In this document: one piece after another, positions 592-32,413 of the stretch | How the letters are laid out: each line of letters begins with the position of its first letter | How positions within the stretch are numbered: the stretch's first letter is position 1 | DNA from: a virus | Reading direction: 5' to 3' (one strand) | DNA length: 42,814 nucleotides | Virus record (IMG/VR): IMGVR_UViG_3300027843_000076 | Span: 1 to 42,814 of that record | The notes under the pieces: model-generated | What the model was told of the DNA's origin: nothing | The model's input: only the letters and a program-made list of their open reading frames with translations | Databases searched by the model: none | Program-made: the position numbers and the translations under genes

Positions 592-619
592 TTGACTTGT
601 GTATACGGTAGGGTATACA
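592..619 (+). promoter_or_regulatory. sigma70-type promoter upstream of the terminase operon
   Basis: TTGACT (592-597) and TATACA (614-619) are separated by 16 bases, a good match to the -35/-10 consensus. The predicted transcript start is near 626, a few bases before a strongly folded leader (631-697) and 88 bases before ATG 714. The -10 box lies inside a palindrome, so the promoter is probably repressible. Confidence 0.6.
600..619. promoter_or_regulatory. palindromic operator candidate over the -10 box
   Basis: Two arms, TGTATAC (600-606) and GTATACA (613-619), form a perfect 7-bp inverted repeat with a 6-base spacer. Each arm also contains the self-complementary hexamer GTATAC, and their centres lie 12 bases apart. 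The site covers the spacer and -10 box, a usual position for a repressor. The Phd-like protein encoded just downstream is a natural candidate to bind it, because Phd/YefM proteins autoregulate through palindromes; that link is inference. Confidence 0.5.
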
Positions 620-630
620 ATTGTATGTAA

Positions 631-697
631 GTAGTGGGGTTAATATGGCTCTACCCTCCGAGCCACGCCACATCTTTGATGCGACAACCCCCACTAC
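631..697 (+). ncRNA. folded 5' leader RNA, predicted three-way junction
   Basis: GTAGTGGGGTT (631-641) pairs with AACCCCCACTAC (686-697) in an 11-bp stem with one bulged C. Inside it, TGGCTC (646-651) pairs with GAGCCA (660-665), and ATC (672-674) pairs with GAT (678-680), with CGC/GCG outside it. This gives a three-way junction starting about five bases after the predicted transcript start. The AAGGAG ribosome site (705-710) follows immediately and stays unpaired. It is not a tRNA, since no T-loop consensus or anticodon arm fits. It could protect the 5' end or act as a regulatory leader. Confidence 0.5.
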
Positions 698-713
698 CCC
701 CTAAAAGGAGACT

Positions 714-965
714 ATGAAGACCTACAATGTCAGAAATTTTAAGATAAAAACCAAAGAAGCCTTAGATATTGTATCTACAGGCGAAACAGTGCTCATCATC
801 AGAGGTGGTGAGCTCTTTAGATTGGAGAAGTTCAGTGAAAAACAAGAAGTTAGTGAGCCGTCTCTATCCAGTGAACCACATTACCCTAGCCAGATGGGAG
901 GCAGCAGGCACATTATTGCAGAAAGCAGCAGAGCTAGGGCTGGCAGTATATCCGAAACGAGTTGA
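714..965 (+). CDS. Phd/YefM-like antitoxin-type DNA-binding protein
   Basis: The start at ATG 714 is preceded by AAGGAG at 705-710. The first ~40 residues (MKTYNVRNFK..., then GETVLIIRGG and FRLEKF) match the pattern of the Phd/YefM antitoxin N-terminal fold: short strand, helix with KEALD, then a GETVII-type hairpin. The last ~43 residues are serine-rich and overlap the next gene out of frame for 131 bases, so only the N-terminal half looks conserved. No toxin gene is adjacent. It may be a repressor of the promoter at 592-619. Confidence 0.6.
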   Translation: MKTYNVRNFKIKTKEALDIVSTGETVLIIRGGELFRLEKFSEKQEVSEPSLSSEPHYPSQMGGSRHIIAESSRARAGSISETS

Positions 966-1188
966 GAGAATATCTCAAGTCATTAACAGTGGCAAGTTTG
1001 ATGATTTGAGCAAGTTCCCTGACAATTCACTGACGAAAGAAGAGATTGAATGGCTCAGGGTCGCCTACTCGTATCCAAATGGACCGATACTTGACCCTAG
1101 ACCCAGGAAAGGAGCACCGAAAGGTATCTACTATGACGAAAAAACAAAGCAATGGAAGTCAAGACCATACATTACAATCCCAGGTTAA
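835..1188 (+). CDS. hypothetical protein upstream of small terminase, 117 aa
   Basis: I chose GTG 835 because GGAGAAG (824-830) sits just upstream; the frame is open further 5' but only as an out-of-frame shadow of the Phd-like gene. The product begins MKNKK and is basic. It contains a possible short helix-turn-helix-like region (about residues 10-45) and ends in a GIYYDEKTKQW motif that vaguely recalls small DNA-contacting beta modules such as AP2-type domains. It overlaps the small terminase start by 56 bases. A role in DNA packaging or regulation is a guess. Confidence 0.55.
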   Translation: MKNKKLVSRLYPVNHITLARWEAAGTLLQKAAELGLAVYPKRVERISQVINSGKFDDLSKFPDNSLTKEEIEWLRVAYSYPNGPILDPRPRKGAPKGIYYDEKTKQWKSRPYITIPG

Positions 1189-1747
1189 TCCAAAAGTCTT
1201 TGAAGTAGTTACCCTTCTCAACTCTAAACTAAAGTCTATGAAGAAGCGTGGTCTAGGACACATCAGTCTACGACCAATTACTCCTGAAGAGATGAGATGG
1301 ATTCAGAAGTATGTAGAAACAGGGGATATTATCGCAGCATCTTACTACGCTTACGGAGACAAGATTAATAATAAAGTTCACGCAAGGAATATGGGATTAG
1401 TAAAAATGGATAAACCTATCATCAGGACAGCAATCGGAGATATAATGACCCAAGACGAAAGATTATCAGAGGACAAGGTAATCAAACGCTTTGGTGATTT
1501 AATGTATTCAGAAAACGAAGTGGTTGCGTCTGGAATGGTCAAAGAATACTTTAAGATAAAGGGAGCCTATGCACCAGAAAAACACATCGGAATTAACGCC
1601 AACGCAGACATCTCAAGTTTTACAGATGAAGACTTTGTATCAGAAACTCTTAAAAGCCTTGGAGAAAGAGATGAACGAGGAGAAGAGGACATCCTTGACC
1701 AAATCACTCTTAGAGACGGAGAAGAGACTGGGGAAGCTGGACTTTGA
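1133..1747 (+). CDS. terS: terminase small subunit (putative)
   Basis: The likely start is ATG 1133, with AAAGG 8 bases upstream, giving 204 aa. Position directly before the large terminase and the layout suggest TerS, which recognises phage DNA and hands it to the large subunit. Residues about 45-110 have the TerS-like pattern: TPEEMRWIQ, GDIIAASYYAYG, then a run ending in PIIRTAIGDIM. A second helical part (EDKVIKRFGDLMYS...KEYFKIKGAY) resembles the oligomerisation half of Terminase_2-like small subunits. The tail is acidic. It overlaps the large subunit gene by 77 bases. Confidence 0.65.
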   Translation: MTKKQSNGSQDHTLQSQVNPKVFEVVTLLNSKLKSMKKRGLGHISLRPITPEEMRWIQKYVETGDIIAASYYAYGDKINNKVHARNMGLVKMDKPIIRTAIGDIMTQDERLSEDKVIKRFGDLMYSENEVVASGMVKEYFKIKGAYAPEKHIGINANADISSFTDEDFVSETLKSLGERDERGEEDILDQITLRDGEETGEAGL

Positions 1748-3092
1748 TTTCTTTAACGAGTTTATTCTTGGTTGTAGGAATCTTGCTCCTGTTCACCACG
1801 AGCTTTGTCTTAGGGCTCAGTATGGTGCGAAGAGACAACTTACTCTTATCCCTCGTGGACATCTTAAATCTACTATCCTTACTGTTGGGTATTCTGTATG
1901 GCGTATCGTATGCGACCCTAATATTCGTATCTGTATTGCTAACGCTAAACAGGATAACGCTGAGACTTTCCTTACAGAAATAAAGGGTCACTTTGAATCT
2001 AACCAGCGTCTACGGATGCACTACGGAGACTTCGTAGGCAAGAAGTGGAACGAGGGTGAAGTTGTAGTTAAGACCAGGTTCATAACTAAAAAGGAACCAA
2101 CTGTGAAGACCACAGGTGTAGGTGCTTCCTTGGTATCCCAGCATTATGATTTGGTTATTGGTGATGACCTTATTAACGAAACGAACATCACCACCAAAGA
2201 CCAGATTGAAAAGACTAAGGACTGGTGGAGACTGGCTCAATCTCTTGGAGACGGAGACCAGACTGACTGGCGTTTAGTCGGAACTCGCTACCACTATGAC
2301 GACCTTTACGGAATGATTATTGAAGACCAAGCTGATATGTATGACATCTACATCAGGAGAGCTTTTGAGGATGGTATTCCTATCTACCCAAGCAAGTTCA
2401 ATGCAGAGCACTTGGAAGAGATTAAGAGGAACCAGGGCTCTTATATCTTCTCTTGTCAGTATTTCAATGACCCAGTAGACGACATAGATGCTACCTTCCG
2501 TAGGGATTGGTTGCGTTTCTATAAGGAAGACGACTTCAAGGTGGTTGGTAAATACAACACCTTCATCACCCTGGACCCAGCTGTATCAGAGGAAGCCACT
2601 GCCGACTACTCTGTATTCGTGGTCAATGCTGTGGATAAGAACAACAACTGGTGGATTCTTGAGATGCGTTCTGGCAAGTGGAATCCTAAAGATTTGATAG
2701 ACAATATGTTTGAACTAGACGAACTCTACAAACCACTACAATTCGGTATAGAGATGCAGGCTTTCCAGAAGATACTGAGATATGTATTTGAAGACGAATG
2801 TTCTAAGAGGAATATGTATCCACCGATAGTTGAACTTAAACCAGATAGTAGAAGTAAGAAATCTCGTATAAGAGGATTACAACCAAAGTTTGAATATGGT
2901 AAAATTATATTAAAGGAAAATGTAATGGAGACAGAACGCCTCGTAGATGAGTATGTTCGGTTTCCTAGGACAACCCACGATGACCACCTTGACGCATTAG
3001 CCTATCAGTTAGATATTGCATACCCACCTCGCCAAGAAGTAGAGCGAAAAAGGGAACAAATAGTTTACATAGACCCTATAACTAAATATTAG
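1671..3092 (+). CDS. terL: terminase large subunit
   Basis: This is the ATP-driven packaging motor with a C-terminal headful nuclease. I chose ATG 1671, behind GGAGAAAGAG at 1661-1670, giving 473 aa; an upstream in-frame ATG at 1569 lies deep within the small subunit gene. A Walker A-type loop LIPRGHLKST is at residues 59-68 (GHLKST instead of the more usual GSGKST, as in T7-like terminases). Walker B is YDLVIGDD near residue 160. The RNase H-like nuclease shows ITLDPAVS near residue 300 and the late acidic pair in THDDHLDALAY. Confidence 0.93.
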   Translation: MNEEKRTSLTKSLLETEKRLGKLDFDFFNEFILGCRNLAPVHHELCLRAQYGAKRQLTLIPRGHLKSTILTVGYSVWRIVCDPNIRICIANAKQDNAETFLTEIKGHFESNQRLRMHYGDFVGKKWNEGEVVVKTRFITKKEPTVKTTGVGASLVSQHYDLVIGDDLINETNITTKDQIEKTKDWWRLAQSLGDGDQTDWRLVGTRYHYDDLYGMIIEDQADMYDIYIRRAFEDGIPIYPSKFNAEHLEEIKRNQGSYIFSCQYFNDPVDDIDATFRRDWLRFYKEDDFKVVGKYNTFITLDPAVSEEATADYSVFVVNAVDKNNNWWILEMRSGKWNPKDLIDNMFELDELYKPLQFGIEMQAFQKILRYVFEDECSKRNMYPPIVELKPDSRSKKSRIRGLQPKFEYGKIILKENVMETERLVDEYVRFPRTTHDDHLDALAYQLDIAYPPRQEVERKREQIVYIDPITKY

Positions 3093-3100
3093 GAGAGAAA

Positions 3101-5296
3101 ATGGCAGAAAAACCCACGGTAGAGAATACAGAATCTGGGATTCAAGGAGAGGAAATACTAGATTCGTATTATCCATCCTTCCTAGACGCTGATAACAAGG
3201 ATATGACAGACGAAGAGAAGGCAGCGAACTATGTTTTAGAGCGTTTCCGTTCAATGTCTAAGGCAAGAACTCCACAGGAAGAGAAATGGACTACTGCTGA
3301 GAGCAACTATCGTGTCGTTCCAGGTGCTACCCCTACTAGAAATAACAAAAATCAGTGGCGTTCTACCCATACAGTGCCTATTACTCACGGTATTGTAGAG
3401 ACTGCAGTAGCAGAATACTCAGATGCCAACCCAGACATCATTATTGCCAACCGTCTTAAAGCTGATGCTTACAAAGGCGATGTTATGGGCAATATTTTCA
3501 AATACACACAGTTCAAAGGTGACTTCAAGGTAGAGAAACTGAAGGCATTTAGAGAACTAGCCATCTACGGAACAGTAATTTGGGAAGAATTTTACAGAGA
3601 AGACCCTTCAATTGTCCGTGACCCAGTAGATTATGACCCAGAAACCAACAAATTCACCTACGAAATCAAGAAAACTACCAAGTTTAATGATGTTTATGGG
3701 CGTGTATGTAACATCTGGGATATTTATGTAGATGAAAGAGCCGAAGATTTCACTGATGCAGAGGATGTAATCAAGCGAGAAGTCCTCACGATGAACGCAT
3801 TTAAGATGAAATACGGTAAATACGAGCCAGTTAAGAAAGATGAGATAAAAGCTGGTGGTGAAACCACTCAGAAAGACGCTTTCCCTAAAGAAGAAGGCGA
3901 TGCAGTTGATAAAATTGAGGTATTTACCTACACAAACCAGGTTGAAGATGTCCAATGGATAGTCGCTAACGGCAAATTGGTCAATCCATTTGATACAGCC
4001 AACCCATTTATGCACAAAGAACTACCATATGCTCGTGGTGTGAACATCCTAATGCCTCATAAGTTCTACGGAATGGGTATTCCAGAGATTATCGCAGGTG
4101 TTCAATCAGAAATTAACACCCTTAGGCGTATGGCTCTTGACCGAGAGAAGCTAGATATTAACAAACCTTCACTTTCTTCAGGTCGCCAAGACCTCACAGA
4201 GGAAGAAGCAGGTATGTATCCAGGCAAAGTGCTCCAAGTTGCTGATGTAGACAAGTCTTTCAAGCAATTAGACACCACTGGTCCTGGTCAGGGTCGCTAT
4301 CAGGAAGAGGATTTACTCAAGGAAGATGCTCGTTATGGTTCTGGCGTATCCAACCCAAGCTCTGCTAACACAACAGGTGCTACGGCAACCGAGTCTGCAA
4401 TAGTCAAGGAAGCCACTCTGAAGCGTCTCAGGAGCGTTTTAGCAGTCAATGAGGTAATCTTACTCACTCGCATCGGAAAACTCCGTGTGAAGAACATACA
4501 GCAGTTCTACAAAGACCCTGTTAAAGTCCAAAAGGTTACAGGCGAAGGTGGAAAGACTGAATGGGTTGGAGAATATCGCCAAGTTGGTGTCCAGAAGGAT
4601 TCAAACAAGCCTATGGAGTTCTTCTCAATTGACCCAGAGTGGATTCGTGGAGACTTTGAGTTCTCTATTCAATCATATTCAACTATTCCTTTGTCTCAAG
4701 CTCTTGAAGAGCAGAGAAGTGAACAGGTCTTTGACCGTCTAACTAACCCAGTAATGATGCAGGTTATTGACCCACGCAAACTTGCTATCTGGTTTATGAA
4801 GAAACACAGTGAAGACCCACGCAAAGTTATGATGGAGAACTTAGACACACCAGATGAGGCACTAGCTGACGAAGAGAACGCCAAGATGATGATGGGCGTA
4901 GAGCTTCCACCAACACCAGGAGCTACTCCAGAACATACTGCAGCTCACTTAGCCTATGTAGAACGCTACGCTTTCCAGATTGATGATGCCAAAGATGACA
5001 TCTTCACTAAGCACATAGATGGCGAGAAGGTTCCAGTATCTCCAGCAGGTATGGGGCAGAACCTACCACCAATAACAAATGGACCTGAACAGGGAATGGA
5101 CCCTAATGCACTAGGTGCTCCACCAGAAGGTGCTGACCCTAACGCACTTCCACCAGAGATGGCAGGAGCTCCAGGACCAGGTGGTATGCCAGTAGAGGGT
5201 GGTATCCCAGGACAAGAGGGTGGGGGTAATCCACTGACTCCAGATATGAGTTTTGATGGTCAACTAAGCAAACCCAACCAGCAGGTTAGGAAATAA
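3101..5296 (+). CDS. portal protein
   Basis: The 731-residue product forms the dodecameric ring at the capsid vertex through which DNA enters and leaves. Its length is close to the P22-type portal, and it has the usual helical stem and wing pattern with conserved-looking stretches such as KFYGMGIPEIIAGVQSEINTLRRMALD and TTGATATESAIV. It directly follows the large terminase by 8 bases, with an AGGAGAG site before ATG 3101. The C-terminal ~70 residues are rich in Pro, Gly and Met with repeated DPNAL units, probably a flexible tail. It ends TAATG with the next gene. Confidence 0.9.
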   Translation: MAEKPTVENTESGIQGEEILDSYYPSFLDADNKDMTDEEKAANYVLERFRSMSKARTPQEEKWTTAESNYRVVPGATPTRNNKNQWRSTHTVPITHGIVETAVAEYSDANPDIIIANRLKADAYKGDVMGNIFKYTQFKGDFKVEKLKAFRELAIYGTVIWEEFYREDPSIVRDPVDYDPETNKFTYEIKKTTKFNDVYGRVCNIWDIYVDERAEDFTDAEDVIKREVLTMNAFKMKYGKYEPVKKDEIKAGGETTQKDAFPKEEGDAVDKIEVFTYTNQVEDVQWIVANGKLVNPFDTANPFMHKELPYARGVNILMPHKFYGMGIPEIIAGVQSEINTLRRMALDREKLDINKPSLSSGRQDLTEEEAGMYPGKVLQVADVDKSFKQLDTTGPGQGRYQEEDLLKEDARYGSGVSNPSSANTTGATATESAIVKEATLKRLRSVLAVNEVILLTRIGKLRVKNIQQFYKDPVKVQKVTGEGGKTEWVGEYRQVGVQKDSNKPMEFFSIDPEWIRGDFEFSIQSYSTIPLSQALEEQRSEQVFDRLTNPVMMQVIDPRKLAIWFMKKHSEDPRKVMMENLDTPDEALADEENAKMMMGVELPPTPGATPEHTAAHLAYVERYAFQIDDAKDDIFTKHIDGEKVPVSPAGMGQNLPPITNGPEQGMDPNALGAPPEGADPNALPPEMAGAPGPGGMPVEGGIPGQEGGGNPLTPDMSFDGQLSKPNQQVRK

Positions 5297-9796: not shown

Positions 9797-10948
9797 ATGC
9801 CAGAGATAGTCGCAGTTGATATAGATGGCGAACTATCTCGTTGGGGTGCTTACTCCAACACGCTCTTTGAAGAAGAGGGCTCTTTTACTATCGGAAGATT
9901 AAACCAAGTAGGAAGCGTCACAATCAAAGTTAATGAGGGGGGGTATGAAGACCAAGCATTTGTCCTAAAATGCTCTCCTGGGCTCTCTCTGTCGCTCACA
10001 AACGGTAACTGGGGAGCAGATGGTGCAGACCTTAATATGGGTCAGATTACTAACAGTGGTAAGACTGCCTATGTTAAATGCACCTCTCTAACAAGTTCAG
10101 GTGTTTACCTGATACTAAATCAAGAAGGAATCCAACCTTACACTGGCGAAAGGGTCACATTTGAACTTGATGGTATCGTATTCGCTACTAATACCAAGAC
10201 TCACTCGCTTGATGCGAATGTGATTATTCGTGGTTCAATCCAAAACACTCTTGATGGTTCAGTAATAAATAGATTTACCACCACACATACAATAGATGCA
10301 GCAGATGTTGTTTCTGCTACAAAGACTAAGACAAAGACCATTGACGCTATAATCGCTGCTAGAAATACCAAGACATTTACTGCTGATGGAATCGTTAAGG
10401 CTACTATACCAAAGACATTTTCTCTTGATGGTATAGTTTCTGACCCAAGTGCGTTTACACCAGTAACGATGTATTTCAGAAGCGATAAGGTTCTTAACTC
10501 AAATGTTACAGGTTCTACTGGTAATAATATGCTAACAACCTCATATGAAGGTGGTTACTATCAGGCTAATGTTGATATTAAGGTTGAGAAGTGGGATACA
10601 AGCTGGACTCAAGTTTCTGCTCAGGGAACTGCTCCTTGGAACAACTTTGGTTGGACTTCAAACACGATAAACTACTCATTCCCAGGTGCTACATCTGTCA
10701 CAAATAACCTAAAGATTAGAATTACTATAAGAGTAACTCAGGTTGGTATAGGTTCTGTAACTGATGTTTGGACAACTGGAGACCTAGGAACAAAGACATT
10801 ACCTTCTGGAACTTGGGGTATTCACTACCACTGCTTGTATGTAAACGGTAATGACTATGGTGATAGCGAAGACCAGCCAGGAACAGATGCATACTTCCAA
10901 TATGGTGGCTCTAGCGATTCAACGATAACTAACTTCGGAGGCACTTAA
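9797..10948 (+). CDS. tail fibre or spike protein with ~14-residue repeats, 383 aa
   Basis: Residues 1-115 form a beta-rich N-terminal domain. Residues about 120-218 contain some seven copies of a repeat of consensus T-x-[ST]-[LI]-D-[GA]-x-[VI] followed by five or six residues and Lys. Residues 220-383 form a beta-sandwich-like domain rich in Gly, Thr and Trp. The same repeat fills much of the next gene, so the two probably arose by duplication or act in one appendage. A host-surface contact role is inferred from composition and position. Two bases separate it from the next start. Confidence 0.7.
   Translation: MPEIVAVDIDGELSRWGAYSNTLFEEEGSFTIGRLNQVGSVTIKVNEGGYEDQAFVLKCSPGLSLSLTNGNWGADGADLNMGQITNSGKTAYVKCTSLTSSGVYLILNQEGIQPYTGERVTFELDGIVFATNTKTHSLDANVIIRGSIQNTLDGSVINRFTTTHTIDAADVVSATKTKTKTIDAIIAARNTKTFTADGIVKATIPKTFSLDGIVSDPSAFTPVTMYFRSDKVLNSNVTGSTGNNMLTTSYEGGYYQANVDIKVEKWDTSWTQVSAQGTAPWNNFGWTSNTINYSFPGATSVTNNLKIRITIRVTQVGIGSVTDVWTTGDLGTKTLPSGTWGIHYHCLYVNGNDYGDSEDQPGTDAYFQYGGSSDSTITNFGGT
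10154..10446 (+). repeat. coding repeats, block 1 (about seven units)
   Basis: Successive units include VTFELDGIV, THSLDANVI, NTLDGSVI, THTIDAADVV, TKTIDAIIA, TFTADGIVK and TFSLDGIV. Units are 13-16 residues apart, and the DNA copies are diverged, so this is an old protein repeat and not a recent tandem duplication. Confidence 0.75.
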
Positions 10949-31449: not shown

Positions 31450-31459
31450 TTCTCAGCTA

Positions 31460-31478
31460 AGGGGGTTAAAGCCCCCCT
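31460..31478 (+). terminator. hairpin after the endolysin gene
   Basis: AGGGGG (31460-31465) pairs with CCCCCT (31473-31478) around a seven-base loop. No T run follows, so it may act as a weak terminator or mRNA end protector. Confidence 0.45.
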
Positions 31479-31512
31479 AAGTTGGGTAATACCAAAGCAA
31501 CTTCACTGGGGG

Positions 31513-31809: not shown

Positions 31810-31957
31810 CACGCCTAACAAATATCACCAATGCGACCACGCCTGCTACGACTACCGTCTCTTCGTGGCTTCTGTCACAGGCGAGAGTGTGGCTCGTGTC
31901 GCAAGAGAAAGTGCCGATGTCATACGGCACAACCAAGAAGAACTTGAAGCCGAGTGA
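31778..31957 (+). CDS. small zinc-binding protein, 59 aa
   Basis: ATG 31778 has AAGGAG eight bases upstream (31764-31769), and the frame runs to TGA 31955-31957. The N-terminus has CKVC and then CDHAC, a likely zinc knuckle, followed by a helix with charged ends (VARVARESADVIRHNQEELEAE). A terminator stem overlaps its last codons. Function unknown. Confidence 0.6.
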   Translation: MEHPCKVCLTDTPNKYHQCDHACYDYRLFVASVTGESVARVARESADVIRHNQEELEAE

Positions 31958-31968
31958 CCCTCGGTTTT
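31946..31968 (+). terminator. rho-independent terminator
   Basis: The stem CCGAG (31950-31954) / CTCGG (31960-31964), extended by A-T and G-U pairs to about eight base pairs, has a five-base loop and runs directly into TTTT (31965-31968). It overlaps the stop codon of the preceding gene. This is the most canonical terminator seen in the right-going arm and probably ends the lysis transcript. Confidence 0.6.
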
Positions 31969-31974
31969 AAGCCA

Positions 31975-32004
31975 GGGGAGTGAGGGGTAATCCCCCTCCT
32001 CCCC
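31975..32004 (+). other. strong G/C hairpin in the lysis region
   Basis: GGGGAG (31975-31980), a bulged T, then GAGGGG (31982-31987) pair with CCCCTC (31993-31998) and CTCCCC (31999-32004) around the loop TAATC: 12 base pairs with one bulge. It lies six bases after the terminator and 34 bases before ATG 32039. It may be a second terminator or a processing and stability element for the next gene. Confidence 0.5.
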
Positions 32005-32038
32005 ATCCAACTAGGTAAACTAAAGAAAGGAGTTCAGT

Positions 32039-32326: not shown

Positions 32327-32371
32327 GGATTAAAACCTAATTCACCATTGCCAACTTAAAGTCCTAAGGAG

Positions 32372-32395
32372 GGGGGCTCTTGCCACAGAGCTCCC
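32372..32395 (+). other. hairpin before the RusA-like gene
   Basis: GGGGGCTCT (32372-32380) pairs with AGAGCTCCC (32387-32395), nine pairs including one G-U, with loop TGCCAC. The 87-base gap it lies in holds nothing else recognisable. It may terminate the holin-like transcript upstream or shape the leader of the resolvase gene, whose AAGGGG site follows at 32405-32410. Confidence 0.45.
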
Positions 32396-32413
32396 TAACT
32401 TATTAAGGGGAAT

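Follow-up and report, generated by a model that had tools for sequence, protein, structure and literature searches.

A candidate folded leader RNA ahead of the packaging genes of an uncultivated phage, and structured RNAs at the matching place in its relatives

Why would the short spacer in front of a phage packaging operon fold so strongly? The DNA analyzed here (the window), a phage record of 42.8 kb (42,814 nucleotides), encodes SU10-like portal and adaptor proteins and a large terminase of the Terminase_6C type. Its leader spacer runs from the stop codon of a small gene (588) to an ATG at 714 and holds a promoter followed by a strongly folding segment; the first-pass annotation had described a promoter feeding a folded leader immediately 5' of the packaging genes, an arrangement which both the sequence and the fold support. 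In this uncultivated phage, transcription probably yields an RNA with a stable, three-armed fold in its first 70 bases, 5' of these genes. To our knowledge, structured RNAs heading phage late operons have rarely been described, least of all in phages that lack a cultured host. The parts of the locus are:

592–621, plus strand: sigma-70-like promoter, TTGACT-N18-TACAAT (10/12 consensus positions; an N18 type common to three relatives)
600–619, no strand: palindrome TGTATAC-GGTAGG-GTATACA over the -10 element, a possible operator (read directly; single copy)
631–697, plus strand: three-way-junction RNA with outer stem 631–639/689–697 (from fold, shuffles and genome-wide rank; the minus strand folds better)
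646–665, plus strand: inner hairpin 1, TGGCTC-TACCCTCC-GAGCCA, stem TGGCTC/GAGCCA (read directly and from the fold)
666–683, plus strand: inner hairpin 2 (CGCCACATCTTTGATGCG), imperfect on plus, 8 bp with two G-U pairs on minus
705–711, plus strand: Shine-Dalgarno sequence AAGGAGA, 7 nt past the outer stem (read directly)
714–965, plus strand: first gene 3' of the leader, with a weak Phd/YefM-like N-terminus (profile match E 0.013, below the curated cut-off)
835–1188, plus strand: small conserved terminase-operon gene (43–47% identical in relatives)
1569–3092, plus strand: terminase large subunit ORF (Terminase_6C)

The promoter had been read as TTGACT-N16-TATACA. Both hexamers are present (592–597 and 614–619), but TACAAT at 616–621, with an 18-nt spacer, is the preferred -10 element because this reading matches the consensus at 10 of 12 positions and has a spacer identical to that in all three relatives. 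Either -10 hexamer overlaps the palindrome, whose 7-bp arms (TGTATAC at 600–606 and GTATACA at 613–619) can be read directly, as claimed. Does the palindrome make the promoter repressible? That step is not supported: by simple arithmetic, dozens of 7-bp palindromes with a short spacer are expected in a genome of this size, and the composite site occurs once in the window, with no second copy, so that an operator here is at most putative.

The outer stem pairs GTAGTGGGG (631–639) with CCCCACTAC (689–697) through nine contiguous base pairs, the 11 bp originally proposed being reached only with a bulge, and encloses two inner hairpins where the annotation had placed them. The three-way junction likewise stands, beginning 2–3 nt after the predicted start rather than about five, and the ribosome-binding site lies outside the fold, as anticipated. 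The predicted structure is stronger than expected from composition: the segment 620–715 folds at -28.7 kcal/mol (z -3.1; 0/200 shuffles equally good), its core at 629–700 reaches -27.7 kcal/mol on the plus strand (z about -4.9), and only 3 of 2,376 72-nt windows scanned genome-wide on both strands are as extreme. No Rfam 15 family matches at or above its gathering threshold, in line with the annotation, which named no described phage leader of this form, and neither DNA similarity searches of phage records nor exact-pattern searches of IMG/VR returned a homologue of the exact leader.

Structure is common in the late-gene spacers of this phage. The strongest fold of the window lies at 31940–32012 (-41 kcal/mol, z -6.9), where two long hairpins, the first followed by UUUUA and perhaps a terminator, precede a small holin-like gene; hairpin-rich late-gene spacers are also found at 31452–31490 and 32365–32400 (z about -2.1 each). 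Within the packaging operon itself, ORFs 714–965 and 835–1188 overlap by about 130 bases and both have good ribosome sites. The product of the former combines its Phd/YefM-like start with a serine-rich tail; the weak match of that N-terminus hints at autoregulation without being evidence for it. Elsewhere, ARAGORN called a tRNA-Leu (caa) at 10576–10670 within a long ORF (9797–10948), possibly a false call.

Is a structured RNA at this place a peculiarity of one phage? TerL searches yielded four related records (L002/L008, L003/L009, L006 and L007), and the portal protein and a small gene of the operon, used as queries, added no other record with a leader. In the three relatives that bear a leader (L002, L003 and L007; TerL 55–58% identical to that of the window), TTGAC[A/T]-N18-TATA[A/C]T lies 5' of the matching operon and is directly followed by a structured RNA; the N18 spacing is thus found in four of four genomes, and a stable stem begins 0–3 nt from each predicted start. 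The second half of the relatives' RNA (domain B) is also a three-way junction, in which the outer stem (UGAAGCG/CGCUUCA; UGAAGAGC/GCUCUUCA in L002) is joined by two hairpins, one variable and the other with an invariant GGAGGGU loop on a stem that differs (UUCAGG/CCUGAA, GAUGG/CCAUC and CGGAGG/CCUUCG). A hairpin that precedes these presents an invariant ACCCCCUU loop, which is computed to pair with GGAGGGU at -8.4 to -9.6 kcal/mol. Both-sided changes occur at 3 of 12 pairs in the alignment and none is broken; this covariation is lost when partners are slid, yet 43 of 500 shuffles do equally well, so that three sequences provide modest support. Rfam searches at E up to 10 gave nothing credible except a tRNA, and the relatives' RNA appears to represent a small family, so far undescribed, that is restricted to these phages.

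Pattern searches of IMG/VR with GGGGAGGGTCC recovered the relatives and chance matches in unrelated phages only; the latter were rejected because their stems are absent beyond pattern-forced bases (one reaches 4 bp), as were a match within a coding gene (L035) and an archaeal-MAG contig that carries nothing but a distant terminase (L038/L040). In L003, the GGAGGGU RNA is followed by a second folded RNA (3424–3548, about -58 kcal/mol, no Rfam match) and then by a tRNA-Pro gene (3551–3627). All three relatives also share a conserved non-coding block, GTATACCTTGT...ATAATTT (TCTAATTT in L007), 5' of the first promoter (L002:2960–2990, L003:2740–2770, L007:15–45).

The window and its relatives thus have a layout in common: a TTGAC-N18 promoter, an RNA stem at +1 and the terminase operon next; the first gene after the RNA is not the same from one relative to another. 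The RNAs themselves are unlike. That of the relatives is longer and bipartite, carries ACCCCCUU and GGAGGGU loops, and differs from the window leader in junction and in position relative to small membrane-protein genes; no RNA sequence similarity is detected on either strand. A covariance model of domain B (R1), on which the relatives score 62–77 bits by construction, finds its best matches in the window elsewhere, at E 1.5 or worse, and the leader was accordingly rejected as a plain homologue of domain B. What the window has looks like a real RNA site, since the corresponding position in the relatives, behind a promoter of matching type, is occupied by another folded RNA; the leader is a statistically strong candidate for a structured leader at a position where this phage group keeps structured RNAs.

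If the leader is made from the plus strand, why does the minus strand fold better? The core at 629–700 reaches -38.7 kcal/mol on the minus strand (z -5.9), matched by one window in the same genome-wide scan, because five A-C mismatches of the plus strand become G-U pairs: hairpin 2 contains two of them, hairpin 1 has one at its base, and the remaining two lie at the outer end. Judged by predicted structure alone, both strands are possible and the balance leans toward minus. The loop of hairpin 1 adds to this: UACCCUCC is the exact complement of the relatives' GGAGGGU, and its minus-strand copy is the sole GGAGGGT in the window. Read on that strand, the locus keeps the relatives' order (outer stem, variable hairpin, GGAGGGU-loop hairpin) and adds a C-rich hairpin, the palindrome, able to pair with the loop at -9.5 kcal/mol, within the range of the relatives. 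A small minus-strand non-coding RNA that is an inverted and diverged version of the one in the relatives would account for these features. A chance match of the loop was put at about one in a thousand, an estimate made after the fact, but GGAGGGT hairpins do arise by chance in unrelated loci (4/42 have stems of at least 5). Furthermore, no minus-strand promoter lies close upstream of 631–697 (the nearest listed, at 967–995, matches 9/12), the relatives' RNA is on the plus strand behind a plus-strand promoter, and neither the covariance model nor sequence similarity connects it to the minus strand here. Such an RNA is therefore unlikely, if worth keeping in view, and the wider proposal that the group has an undescribed RNA class heading the packaging operon, marked by GGAGGGU and a complementary C-rich loop and inverted in the window phage with fold and loop kept, is more doubtful still. 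A plus-strand leader is favored overall because the promoter, its match to the relatives (5 of 500 shuffles align as well with the L007 promoter region) and the open Shine-Dalgarno sequence are all on that strand.

What could a plus-strand fold do, if it does anything? A chance fold in a GC-rich spacer, or a DNA-level site such as an operator or packaging site, would explain why no homologue was found, why the palindrome is of ordinary size and why both strands fold, as a DNA site would; set against the z-scores, the genome-wide rank and the structured RNA with compensatory stem changes at the equivalent place in relatives, this is improbable. Translational control, either by pairing of the loop CUCC with GGAG at the ribosome site or by binding of a ligand or phage protein to the junction, draws on the position of the junction just 5' of the Shine-Dalgarno sequence and on a computed -5.4 kcal/mol for UACCCUCC with AAGGAGA. 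This pairing, however, comprises only 4 bp, the first gene varies among relatives, and in L003 a tRNA separates the RNA from the first gene, which argues, for that phage, against translational control as well as against protection of the terminase message at its 5' end; control of this kind is quite improbable, and no support was found for the earlier suggestion of ligand sensing. The tRNA in L003 points instead to a co-transcriptional or trans role in that phage, since tRNA processing would cut the RNA off the mRNA. A trans-acting RNA released from the transcript, for example a packaging RNA, would suit the adjoining terminase genes, the two complementary loops of the relatives and the tRNA-linked RNA cluster of L003. 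In the window, no second partner for GGAGGGT was found and the plus transcript has none, the Terminase_6C-type TerL and SU10-like portal are not a phi29 motor, and no Rfam model matches, that of pRNA included; a trans-acting RNA is hence very doubtful.

The preferred reading, held tentatively and at somewhat less than even strength, is that the leader forms a folded 5' terminus on the transcript of the packaging operon and acts in cis during transcription. A sigma-70-type promoter would start the RNA of the packaging (late) operon; the first ~70 nt would adopt the three-way junction immediately, so that the ribosome site of the first gene stays accessible; and the folded 5' end would either (i) cause RNA polymerase to read through, in the manner of HK022 put RNA, or (ii) shield the message from decay. 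Both the plus-strand transcription and the cis role are what we infer. Put-like read-through or a decay-resistant 5' end fits because the stem starts a few bases from +1 and the operon is long and co-directional. The strength and rank of the fold, the shared promoter type and the relatives' RNA before the matching operon, with its invariant loop and compensatory changes, argue for a cis leader; the better minus-strand fold and the dissimilarity of the relatives' RNA, which the model fails to extend to the window, argue against it. No strong terminator such as would demand antitermination was found just downstream, which weighs against that particular role.

How does the leader compare with known phage RNAs? 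HK022 put RNA binds the zinc-binding domain of the RNA polymerase β' subunit and suppresses termination. Its putL element begins the transcript, spans ~70 nt and base-pairs from the third base (PMC9378689), and the window leader is similarly about 70 nt long and predicted to fold, and would likewise head a long transcript just after a sigma-70 promoter; compared by architecture, put elements are two stem-loops in series in early operons, unlike the closed three-way junction before packaging genes. With phi29 pRNA the leader shares a phage origin, a three-way junction and a link to DNA packaging, but differs in its packaging motor and in having no complementary loop pair on the plus transcript. 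Staphylococcal cabRNA, a CBASS-activating RNA, is also a structured RNA of the terminase region but arises within the terS-terL coding sequence (PMC10686824).

The main interest of the window leader is as a pointer to the undescribed RNA in the relatives, a family with defined loops that is absent from Rfam. If real, the leader would be a compact RNA that may regulate the packaging of phage DNA or accompany it.
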